From a virus: DNA of 33,450 bases. Positions 1-33,230 of the stretch are shown in pieces (the stretch's first letter is position 1; the number at the start of each line of letters is the position of its first letter). The notes beneath the pieces are model-generated. The model had not been told where the DNA came from, searched no databases, and saw only the letters and a list, made by a program, of their open reading frames with translations. Both the position numbers and the translations under genes were made by a program. The DNA lies in IMG/VR virus record IMGVR_UViG_3300029826_000010, positions 1 through 33,450 of that record, one strand, 5' to 3'.

Positions 1-204
1 GCTCCTTTTGAAGTCGTATGGATATATTGGAGAAATAGAGAGGTGTTATTAGGCTGTCGAGTTTATGAAGATGACCCTAATGGAAAAAAATATGGATCAT
101 CCGAAGGCTGGTATTCATTTGAAGACGAAAAGTGCCGTTGGACTCATTATTGGATGTCTGTTAAAGATAGCAGATTAGATAAACCAGAACCACCAAGAAA
201 TTAA
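1..204 (+). CDS. 3' end of an unrecognised gene
   Basis: Frame 1 is open from the first base to a TAA at 202-204, giving the last 67 residues of a protein whose start lies outside the window. The fragment is rich in Trp, Tyr and charged residues (for example WIYWRN and GWYSFEDEKCRWTHYW). I see no known motif. It reads in the same direction as the next two genes. Confidence 0.6.
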   Translation, partial: APFEVVWIYWRNREVLLGCRVYEDDPNGKKYGSSEGWYSFEDEKCRWTHYWMSVKDSRLDKPEPPRN

Positions 205-23400: not shown

Positions 23401-25077
23401 ATGACAAGCCCTTTTGTAGTTTCACCGATTTCATATGGAGACGCTCCGAACGGAGGCGTCGTAATGCCCACAGTAATAGCAACCCGCGATCCCACAGCTA
23501 ATGATAAATATGAAATTGGTTACCAGTGGATAAATAAATCTAATGATTCTTATTGGGTTTTAACTGGATTTACAGCAGGTGTACCAAACTGGGCATCTGG
23601 AGGTAATAATCCTGCTACTACGACAGATTACGGAACGGTAATTCTTACTGATAATAGCGAACCAGTAGCTACAAAAGTTTATGTTGATGGAATCGCTATC
23701 GCTGGCGCACCAGTTGCTACAGTTGCCGTTCAGGGTATTGTAGAATTGGCAACAAATGCAGAAGCTGTTTCTCCATATACTACAACAGTTCCTAATACTG
23801 CGCTTATTCCTTCTAATATTACACCAATGTTTGCCGCTCCTCCTCCAATTGGAGCAACTACACCTGCAGCCGGATCATTTACTACATTAGCAGCGTCTAG
23901 TACTTTAAGTGTTACAGGTGCATCTACAATTGCTGCTTTGAGTGCTACTAGCGGTACATTTAGTACTACACTCGGAGTAACAGGAACATCGACCCTTGGC
24001 GTAGTAAATTCTGGAAATCTTGGAGTGACTGGAACACTAGCCGTTTCTGGTACATCAACAATTGCAGCACTAAGTGCGACAAATGGAACATTTTCAGGAA
24101 CATTAGGAGTGACTGGAACTTCAACTTTAGGTGTAGTAGCAAGTGGAAATACTACAATTACAGGAACATTAGGTGTAAGTGGGCTATCGTCATTAGCTTC
24201 TGCAACATTTAGTTCGACAATTGGAGTAACAGGATTAACTACTTTAGCCGCTTTAACACAAGTTGGCACTGCAAATATTAATGCAAGTGGTGCAGGTGTT
24301 ACAACTATTGGAACTGGTGGAACTGGTGCAGTAAATATCGGGAATGCGACTGGTAATACAGCCGTAACAGGAGCTTTAAGCACGACAACTACTTTAACAG
24401 GTGGCACAGGTATTACAGCTACTACCGGTAATATTACGGCAAGTGCTGGAGATTTTGTCGCTACACTTGGTGATGTAACTGTTAGTGCAGGTAATATAAC
24501 TGTGACATTAGGATTTGTTTCTGCAGGAACTACAGTTACAGCAGGTACAGGAATTTCGGCAACAACTGGCAATATTACTGCGGATGCTGGTGATTTTATT
24601 GCAACACTTGGAGCTGTATCAGCAGCAACTACGGTAACGGCTGGTACTGGATTGATAGCAACAACAGGCGGAGTTACAGCTTCAGCCGGTAATATTGTAG
24701 CTACACTTGGAGATATTTCAACTGGTGCAGGATCTATTACTTCTGCTACCACTTTGACAGCTACATTAGGAAATATTACTGCCACTAATGGAGATTTAAT
24801 TTTAGGAACAACAGGAAATAAACTTCAAATTCACGCTGCAACTGCTGCTAGTGACTCCATTGGTACATCGGCTGTTTTAGATGGTGCTTCTCCATCTCAA
24901 TTAGTTGTTGCAACAACCGCGGTCACAGCCTCATCTAAAATATTCTTATCATATGCTACGGCTGGCGGAACACAAGGTTCACTTTCTGTCGGTACAATTG
25001 TAGCAGGAACAAGTTTCCAAATTAAATCTTCTGCAAATGGTGATACATCGACAGTTAATTATTTAATTATTAATTAA
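23401..25077 (+). CDS. tail fibre or spike with Gly/Thr/Ala repeats
   Basis: A 558-residue low-complexity protein. Residues 1-75 form a distinct N-terminal domain that probably anchors it to the virion (SNDSYWVLTGFTAGVPNWAS). Residues about 160-290 carry repeats of the type LGVTGTSTLGVV, and about 330-470 carry degenerate repeats of TAGTGISATTGNITA, AGDFIATLG. Such repeats form beta-solenoid shafts of receptor-binding fibres. The last 60 residues are a compact beta tip (GTSFQIKSSANGDTSTVN). No tail-spike enzyme motif is seen. Confidence 0.75.
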   Translation: MTSPFVVSPISYGDAPNGGVVMPTVIATRDPTANDKYEIGYQWINKSNDSYWVLTGFTAGVPNWASGGNNPATTTDYGTVILTDNSEPVATKVYVDGIAIAGAPVATVAVQGIVELATNAEAVSPYTTTVPNTALIPSNITPMFAAPPPIGATTPAAGSFTTLAASSTLSVTGASTIAALSATSGTFSTTLGVTGTSTLGVVNSGNLGVTGTLAVSGTSTIAALSATNGTFSGTLGVTGTSTLGVVASGNTTITGTLGVSGLSSLASATFSSTIGVTGLTTLAALTQVGTANINASGAGVTTIGTGGTGAVNIGNATGNTAVTGALSTTTTLTGGTGITATTGNITASAGDFVATLGDVTVSAGNITVTLGFVSAGTTVTAGTGISATTGNITADAGDFIATLGAVSAATTVTAGTGLIATTGGVTASAGNIVATLGDISTGAGSITSATTLTATLGNITATNGDLILGTTGNKLQIHAATAASDSIGTSAVLDGASPSQLVVATTAVTASSKIFLSYATAGGTQGSLSVGTIVAGTSFQIKSSANGDTSTVNYLIIN

Positions 25078-31495: not shown

Positions 31496-31789
31496 ATGAA
31501 AATACGCACATTCGCACATATTTGCCCTATATGCTCTTATAAAGTCTCGACCTATGGTTACCCCTGCAGTGTTCTGATAGAGCTTGCTATCGCCCATTAT
31601 TTGAAAAAATCACCCCTTACATTTAACGATAGAGATTATAATGATCGGCTATTCAAAATACCGCTTCAATATCTGGAAACAAAAGGTTTTCTTATTTCCA
31701 CCGAATGCGATGACATACATATACAAATTTTACCTAACATGCGAAAAGGTTTCTACAACGAGCAAGAGAAGCGTTTCTGCTGGTGTTAA
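31496..31789 (+). CDS. small protein, unknown
   Basis: A 97-residue protein with an N-terminal CPIC motif (FAHICPICSYKVSTYGYPCS) and a C-terminal CWC. The zinc-ribbon-like start suggests nucleic-acid or protein contacts. It lies between the regulator and the replication gene. A weak ribosome binding site sits in the loop of the hairpin just upstream. Confidence 0.5.
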   Translation: MKIRTFAHICPICSYKVSTYGYPCSVLIELAIAHYLKKSPLTFNDRDYNDRLFKIPLQYLETKGFLISTECDDIHIQILPNMRKGFYNEQEKRFCWC

Positions 31790-31938: not shown

Positions 31939-32817
31939 ATGTCTAATATTCCTTATTTTTTCCATGCTATACCCGAAGAATTCATGACAGATGCCTTCAT
32001 CGAAGATATTCCTATGATGAAATTAGTTCGTTATATGATGAAAAGAATTCGTTATGATGAACATGAAGAGATATTCCAAAATAATAGGCATATGCATAAA
32101 ATTATTTTAAAACCGTTTGAATGGGTTTTTGGAAGGGATATGGCCGCTAAAGAATGCAAAACAACCCCTGACATCATTCGTGCGCGAATTACCCAGCAGA
32201 TCCACATGGGTTACATTGTAAAACGCCCCAGCAGTTCAACCAGCACTTATTCGGTTTATGCTATAGTACCAACAGCTTTTAGACAAACCAAGCCCCAGCA
32301 GTTCCCCCAGCAGTTCCCCCAGCAGTTCCCCCAGCAGTTCCCCCACAATACAGATAACAAGAAACCAGATGTTAAGAAAGAACAACAACCCCCAACCCCT
32401 AAAGGGGCTTGTGTTGTTTTTTCTTGTTTGGAAAAAATCAACGATCCTTACATTGGAAAAAAAGAAAAAGAACGCCTGACTAGAAAAAATGAAGGTAATG
32501 AGCAAGTTGTGATTGATGCCGTGGATGCCGTGCTGCAATCCTCGTTTACCCCCGAAACAACACTTTTAAGATCCTTGAATGCAGCCATAAAAGGCCAATG
32601 GAAACCGCTCCCTGAAAAAGAAGATTCAATAAAATTAAACAAGAAAAAAGCTTTAGAATTACAGATGAAAGGACACCAGTATTACAAAATAGAGGCTTGC
32701 GGCACGTATTTAGAGATTATCGCAGGTCCTATTTCCCACGTGGTGCAATACGATTTACAATCGGATAAATTTGATAAACAGGTTATTGAACATTTAAAAA
32801 TAGGTAAACAGGCATGA
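31939..32817 (+). CDS. replication initiator-like protein, O/DnaD type
   Basis: A 292-residue protein. Residues about 45-110 form a winged-helix-like DNA-binding region (GRDMAAKECKTTPDIIRARI, then TQQIHMGYIVKRPSSST). A Pro/Gln linker of four PQQF repeats follows, then a C-terminal domain of unknown fold. This N-domain/linker/C-domain plan matches lambda O-type initiators. The repeats at DNA level are probably origin iterons. The ATG at 31939 (GGGG upstream) is preferred over 31927. The next gene overlaps by ATGA. Confidence 0.65.
   Translation: MSNIPYFFHAIPEEFMTDAFIEDIPMMKLVRYMMKRIRYDEHEEIFQNNRHMHKIILKPFEWVFGRDMAAKECKTTPDIIRARITQQIHMGYIVKRPSSSTSTYSVYAIVPTAFRQTKPQQFPQQFPQQFPQQFPHNTDNKKPDVKKEQQPPTPKGACVVFSCLEKINDPYIGKKEKERLTRKNEGNEQVVIDAVDAVLQSSFTPETTLLRSLNAAIKGQWKPLPEKEDSIKLNKKKALELQMKGHQYYKIEACGTYLEIIAGPISHVVQYDLQSDKFDKQVIEHLKIGKQA
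32293..32340 (+). repeat. four tandem 12-bp repeats, candidate origin iterons
   Basis: Four perfect copies of CCCCAGCAGTTC at 32293-32304, 32305-32316, 32317-32328 and 32329-32340, with a single extra copy at 32226-32237 and a partial copy after 32340. They encode PQQF repeats in the linker of the replication gene. Lambda ori similarly lies inside its initiator gene. Confidence 0.6.
32374..32425. repeat. inverted repeat beside the iterons
   Basis: The arms 32374-32386 and 32413-32425 pair over 13 positions with one G.T. An inner CCCC (32396-32399) pairs with GGGG (32404-32407) around TAAA. It lies 34 bases after the last 12-bp repeat, within the coding sequence. A palindrome next to iterons is also a feature of lambda ori. 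Confidence 0.5.
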
Positions 32818-33230
32818 AAAAACAAAAAAATGAAGATAAAAATGTAAAAAACGAAAAAGAATTTCTTGAAAACATTCATAAGATTTTACCGTTTTTATTG
32901 CCTGGTTTAGAAAGTAACCAGCTATATGAAAAAGGTATTCTAAATTTGCCCATAGAACACATAAGATTAATTTCAGAAAATGATATGTTGCTTATTTATT
33001 TATCTATCTGCATTCAAGCTTATCCAACAAACGAATGGAAATATAAGGACGGAGAAGAGATTGAAGCGGCTAGGATTTTCAAAACGCTTCTTGCGGTTGC
33101 AGCTTTACAAAAAAATAATCTTTTAACAGCAAAAACTACAGGAGGGAAACTTCTTGATGACAATAATATTTTATTTGAAATCATTGATCCTAGCGCAAGA
33201 AATTTAATAGAGAAATTAAATAACACTTAA
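32814..33230 (+). CDS. unknown protein coupled to the initiator
   Basis: A 138-residue, mostly helical protein with a very basic first 20 residues (KKQKNEDKNVKNEKEF), overlapping the initiator gene by ATGA. By position it could be a partner of the initiator, such as a helicase loader, but no P-loop is present. It is not recognised. Confidence 0.6.
   Translation: MKKQKNEDKNVKNEKEFLENIHKILPFLLPGLESNQLYEKGILNLPIEHIRLISENDMLLIYLSICIQAYPTNEWKYKDGEEIEAARIFKTLLAVAALQKNNLLTAKTTGGKLLDDNNILFEIIDPSARNLIEKLNNT

Follow-up and report, generated by a model that had tools for sequence, protein, structure and literature searches.

Positions 32226-32425 of the window, by which we mean the whole stretch of DNA analysed here (33,450 bases, from the start of a virus record of 40,414 bases), very probably form a phage replication origin that lies inside the gene for its own initiator. 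The original prediction had placed a possible origin here, and it is supported by iterons that occur in two reading frames with fixed codons and by a layout like the one annotated for the P22 and lambda origins. We infer that the gene product binds the iterons and that melting, helicase loading, and the start of replication take place at this site. The gene and the parts of the proposed origin are, in order along the window:

31939-32817, plus strand: initiator gene, O-like or replisome-organizer-like (open reading frame from 31927, 296 aa; likely start ATG at 31939)
31975-32265, plus strand: predicted winged-helix N-terminal domain (AlphaFold model m5170b3dcc0f0, pLDDT 77)
About 32167-32208, plus strand: recognition helix in the AlphaFold model
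32191-32202, plus strand: possible outlying iteron copy ACCCAGCAGATC, matching CCAGCAG; doubtful, its distance not being conserved
32226-32237, plus strand: iteron W1, CCCCAGCAGTTC, in the wing, read in the frame P-S-S-S
32227-32250, plus strand: wing loop, residues 96-103, encoded by the wing iterons
32238-32249, plus strand: iteron W2, degraded, AACCAGCACTTA, in the wing
32251-32265, plus strand: last strand of the winged helix in the AlphaFold model
32293-32340, plus strand: iterons L1-L4, four perfect tandem copies of CCCCAGCAGTTC, in the linker, read in the frame P-Q-Q-F
32341-32348, plus strand: half copy (CC)CCACAA on the next 12-bp step, with CCACAA at 32343
32355-32388, plus strand: A-rich tract, 59% A and 12% T, candidate unwinding region
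32374-32425, unstranded: hairpin with arms 32374-32387 (AAGAAAGAACAACA) and 32412-32425 (TGTTGTTTTTTCTT), 13 of 14 positions paired
32389-32407, unstranded: C-run/G-run core of the hairpin, CCCCCAACCCCTAAAGGGG, enclosed by the arms; the same core as in the annotated P22 origin
32408-32814, plus strand: C-terminal half of the initiator, dissimilar to the C-terminal halves of the relatives L001 and L130

The start codon was picked from an alignment with the relatives described below. The window protein has no family match in Pfam, PHROG, or NCBIfam, and a sequence search of the PDB returned nothing. Foldseek comparison of the N-terminal domain with the PDB gave MarR winged helices as the top matches (probability 0.99-1.0, E about 0.03), and comparison of the full-length model (mean pLDDT 47) with viral proteins gave a DnaD-domain protein, replisome organizers, and lambda GpO-N-like proteins, with a best E-value of 6e-8. 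Two of the relatives show weak family matches, L001 to the DnaD-like loaders of phrog_186 (E 6e-5) and L196 to the O-like proteins of phrog_391 (E 0.0015). The N-terminal winged helix that characterizes O-like proteins and replisome organizers is predicted for the window protein. The C-terminal half is presumed to be the part that recruits the helicase or its loader. The C-terminal halves of the window protein, L001, and L130 share no similarity with one another, whereas the N-terminal half and the DNA sites remain associated; such a pattern would be expected if the DNA-binding domain were exchanged together with the origin as a module, and the helicase-recruiting half as a separate one.

The gene lies in an early region, preceded by genes for a RecT-like annealing protein, a YqaJ/RecE-like exonuclease, and an HTH regulator, and it is followed by a RusA-like gene, for which a family match was obtained in L196 only. 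The gene immediately after the initiator (32814-33230) has no significant family match, and neither a DnaB-like helicase nor a known loader was recognised directly downstream. The same virus record encodes a P22-like portal. GC skew gave no separate origin signal and was uninformative. Just 5' of the initiator, a cysteine-containing protein of 97-99 aa is encoded both in the window (31496-31789) and in L196 (3574-3873); it ends in CWC in the former and in CWCSKR in the latter and has no Pfam or PHROG match.

The four perfect 12-bp repeats and the separate copy on which the original prediction was built are present, at 32293-32345 and 32226-32237, respectively. The tandem array amounts to 4.4 units of CCCCAGCAGTTC (32293-32345), and L1 begins 55 bp after W2. 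The 8-mer CCCCAGCA has five copies in the initiator gene and none elsewhere in the window. The repeats had also been said to encode the linker of the initiator, which holds for the four tandem copies in the PQQF frame but not for the separate copy, which is read in the PSSS frame and encodes the wing. The CAGCACTT variant seen in the degraded copy W2 also stands at the final wing position of L001 and of L196.

Searches by protein and by iteron turned up four related genes, all from uncultured viruses: L001, represented by three near-identical contigs, and L079, L130, and L196. L079 first came to light through the iteron DNA pattern only; its protein was afterwards confirmed to be related. Protein identity among the relatives is 32-59%. 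All five genes, including that of the window, have their 5-7 iterons distributed over two reading frames and arranged in the same order: a wing cluster, exactly 55 bp, a linker cluster, and a half copy YCACAA located 12 or 24 bp past the last iteron. Each cluster holds 2-4 iterons, in codon phase 1 (frame P/A/T/V-S-S) in the wing and in codon phase 2 (QQ frame) in the linker. Iterons of a cluster follow one another at steps of 12 or 24 bp, the exceptions being a 66-bp outlying step in L001 and the doubtful window copy at 32193. The constant 55-bp gap could reflect protein structure, namely the last wing strand and the start of the linker, or DNA architecture, or both. No relatives were found in GTDB genomes, searched by protein pattern, or in phage or plasmid records.

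Collection scans for CCAGCAGTT arrays also returned many unrelated stretches, in which the copies are mostly in one reading frame. Noncoding CCAGCAGTTTCA arrays in L071 and L084 were likewise rejected as relatives of the initiator gene; these repeats are common to two otherwise unrelated viral contigs (L071 5398-5442 and L084 13225-13271) and may be an origin or operator in some other group of phages. The sole genome match to the two-cluster pattern, L190, proved to be an unrelated tandem array in a Melainabacteria MAG, with about 11 copies of the 11-bp unit CCAGCAGTTCG lying between two genes of the contig (4517-4635).

Several comparisons of the five genes indicate that the repeats are maintained as DNA. 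The 9-mer CCAGCAGTT is present in five copies in the window gene, compared with a maximum of one in 5000 synonymous recodings, and in each of the five genes none of 5000 recodings reached the observed copy number. When codons were compared at aligned positions with identical amino acids and counted as same or changed, those of the iterons were frozen while other codons had drifted: 21/0 versus 89/56 elsewhere for L079 and L130 (p=8.6e-5), 13/1 versus 44/43 for the window and L001 (p=0.002), and 13/0 versus 48/31 for the window and L196 (p=0.003); for L001 and L196 the counts were 13/5 versus 40/37 (p=0.1). The three bases that open the site differ between genomes, being CCC in the window, GGC in L001, GGT in L196, and GAC in L079 and L130. 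Within each of the five genomes, however, the opening triplet matches between both frames, an agreement equalled by 2 of 120 permutations, with the window wing cluster entering as one CCC and one degraded copy and with one L130 linker copy reading GTC. In L196, all six copies in both frames are GGTCAGCA.

The encoded peptides vary, with PQQF, GQQF, GQQK, DQQN, and DQQF in the linker and PSSS, ASSS, TSSS, and TVSK in the wing. Since the two clusters are read in unequal frames, equal DNA forces different residue changes on each (P/G/G/D in the linker, P/A/V/T in the wing), and a concerted change of the site across two frames is not explained by a protein repeat. On this comparative sequence evidence, the repeats are DNA sites under selection at the DNA level and not a protein repeat. 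Of the earlier proposal that protein and DNA selection may jointly keep the repeats, the DNA part is supported by the fixed codons, the two frames, and the recodings. The pattern is indeed the opposite of a PQQF peptide kept with freely changing codons: the peptide changes and the DNA site stays.

The iterons are followed by the A-rich tract and, as had been predicted, by an inverted repeat, whose arms measure 14 nt with 13 positions paired. Same-strand tracts in lambda and P22 have 63% and 66% A, respectively; the tract of L196 is weaker, with 36% A and 30% T. Measured against synonymous recodings, the hairpin fold has z-scores of -3.36 in the window and -2.3 in L001, whereas in L079 and L130 it is weakly stable (z -0.7 and -0.9), with no clear excess over the recodings. 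L196 has a hairpin of different sequence, with a z-score of -2.2 by shuffles. The hairpin encodes peptides of the TPxPPKGG type, namely TPQPPKGG in L079 (CCCCCCAACCCCCTAAAGGGGG), TPLPPEGG in L130, and TPTPSKGE in L001. In 1.99 Mb of loci, the hairpin motif was confined to the window, L001, L079, and L130 (it is absent from L196), gene 18 of P22, and an O-type gene in L161, and blastn with the P22 element gave matches in the O genes of HK97, Pmp10, Aaphi23, and Midgardsormr38. The succession of A-rich tract and hairpin recurs in the O genes of HK97 and Midgardsormr38 and in L161. Across O-type genes of several phages, the annotated P22 origin among them, C-run/G-run hairpins that follow an A-rich tract and encode TPLxPxG(G) stand at the end of the intragenic origin (L220 1464-1485, L226, L224, L222, and L161, minus strand, 971).

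Comparison with known systems shows where the proposed origin conforms to type and where it departs from it. The original prediction had likened the arrangement to that of lambda; the order of winged helix, iterons, A-rich tract, and hairpin inside the initiator gene indeed matches the origins of both P22 and lambda. In P22, the origin in gene 18 (NC_002371, rep_origin 32840-32984) comprises iterons, an A-rich tract, and a CCCCCTTACCCCCTAAAGGGGG hairpin encoding TPLPPKGG, with the iterons in more than one codon phase and all parts inside the initiator gene. The P22 iterons ATCGGTAAAA, however, are 20 and 24 bp apart and confined to the linker, whereas here CCAGCAGTT recurs at 12 or 24 bp and forms an additional wing cluster; moreover, the next gene in P22 encodes a DnaB-like helicase, and none was recognised here. 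In lambda, the iterons lie within O beyond the winged-helix part, occupy three codon phases, and are followed by the 63% A tract (PMC5043065). They are inverted repeats of 18-19 bp bound by O dimers, in contrast to the short direct repeats without dyad found here, and they begin at residue 117, past the wing, and continue at steps of 20, 24, and 23 bp in the linker only, whereas the step here is 12 bp and a cluster lies in the wing; nor was a P-like loader recognised here. The O-type genes of HK97, Midgardsormr38, and Pmp10 likewise have a winged-helix-like N-terminal part, four iterons, an A-rich tract, and a TPLxPxG(G) stretch, but their steps are 19-24 bp and the first iteron lies close to where the last wing strand ends, with none found inside the wing. 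The wing positions in these three phages, lambda, and P22 were judged from sequence, and no iterons were detected in Aaphi23 by a simple scan.

SPP1, compared by description, has in oriL within gene 38 direct repeats and an AT-rich unwinding element inside an initiator gene (PMC6316719). It differs in having a second origin and its own helicase and loader. Plasmid iterons are generally located outside the initiator coding sequence. In iteron plasmids of the P1 and RK2 type, direct-repeat iterons stand beside an A+T-rich region, as they do here, but are generally in helical phase (PMC5043065), whereas those of the window are intragenic and 12 bp apart.

The window and its relatives thus share with intragenic origins a site array in the initiator gene (five genes), DNA-level selection, and an adjoining A-rich tract, and the window shares with P22 the C-run/G-run hairpin that closes the origin (CCCCCAACCCCTAAAGGGG compared with CCCCCTTACCCCCTAAAGGGGG in P22). 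They lack the iterons about 20-24 bp apart in the linker only that are typical of lambda and P22. Short direct repeats at a 12-bp step and a second cluster in the wing place the array outside the lambda/P22 iteron type, though it would work alike. The segment is best read as an intragenic origin of the lambda/P22-like kind, carried by an initiator family that has diverged. Wing-coded iterons may already be described somewhere; our literature search covered open papers.

Other explanations of the repeats were weighed against this reading. The winged-helix protein might autoregulate its transcription by binding the repeats as an operator, with replication beginning elsewhere; its fold resembles MarR regulators, and autoregulatory iterons are common in plasmid initiators. 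This is unlikely, however, as the sites are about 290-410 bp into the coding sequence, which is no promoter position, and adjoin an A-rich tract and a hairpin of the P22 origin type, and among phage proteins it is replisome organizers that match the protein in structure. We give almost no credence to a low-complexity PQQF linker grown by slippage, in which DNA identity would reflect recent duplication only: four copies are perfect and in tandem, but the same 9-mer occurs in two frames of divergent genes whose iteron codons are frozen and whose clusters are always 55 bp apart, and the synonymous recodings, which never reached the observed copy number, contradict it.

It is also very improbable that the winged-helix protein binds the repeats as a partition (centromere) or DNA-packaging site. 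The centromere-binding winged helices TubR, AspA, and pNOB8 are among the weaker fold matches, and a ParB-like domain protein is encoded at 1007-1756, but neither a ParA nor a TubZ partner turned up among the genes searched, the initiator gene sits in the early replication and recombination block far from the terminase, and the hairpin matches replication origins. The hairpin alone could be an RNA element, such as a terminator or attenuator, independent of the iterons, and its right arm in the window is indeed T-rich (GTTGTTTTTTC). There is little chance of this, given that a scan of the window gave no plus-strand terminator match, the GC stem is not followed by a T-run in L079, L130, and P22, no Rfam family scored above its gathering threshold, and the hairpin follows an A-rich tract in initiator genes.

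For a replication origin in its own initiator gene, the arrangement suggests the following mechanism. The winged-helix N-terminal domain would bind the CCAGCAGTT direct repeats, of which the cluster encoding the wing has two and the cluster encoding the linker four and a half copy, and the resulting nucleoprotein complex would strain and melt the adjoining A-rich tract, with the C-run/G-run hairpin as the putative far boundary of the origin. The C-terminal half would then bring in the host replicative helicase or its loader. Transcription of the initiator gene would traverse the origin, as in lambda, where transcription through the origin activates it (PMC5043065).

A change of site hits all copies at once (CCC-, GGC-, GGT-, or GAC-CAGCA), including those that rewrite the wing. 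With a likelihood that we put a little short of even, the binding sites in part encode the wing that reads them, so that site and reader co-evolve through one stretch of DNA and the wing cluster is a functional part of the origin and not a by-product.

The proposed origin would widen the lambda/P22 plan, with its origin embedded in the gene of the initiator, to include a protein family that hardly resembles O proteins in sequence, and would add a variant in which sites encode the wing of the predicted binding domain itself. It also provides comparative evidence that such intragenic repeats are selected as DNA, and suggests that origins in uncultured phages could be sought by three marks together: iterons in two codon phases, a strand rich in A, and a C-run/G-run hairpin that encodes TPxPxGG.

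Three further observations concern the virus record as a whole. The ParB-like domain protein mentioned above is encoded on the minus strand and matches phrog_12305 (E 3e-21). A repeat-rich, tail-like protein of 558 aa (23401-25077) is overlapped on the opposite strand by a frame of 351 aa (23730-24785, minus), which is probably a by-product of the codon composition of the repeats. Finally, both ends of the 40.4-kb record (window 1-204 and L005 7173-7409) encode one protein, with at least one difference, which suggests terminal redundancy or a circular map.
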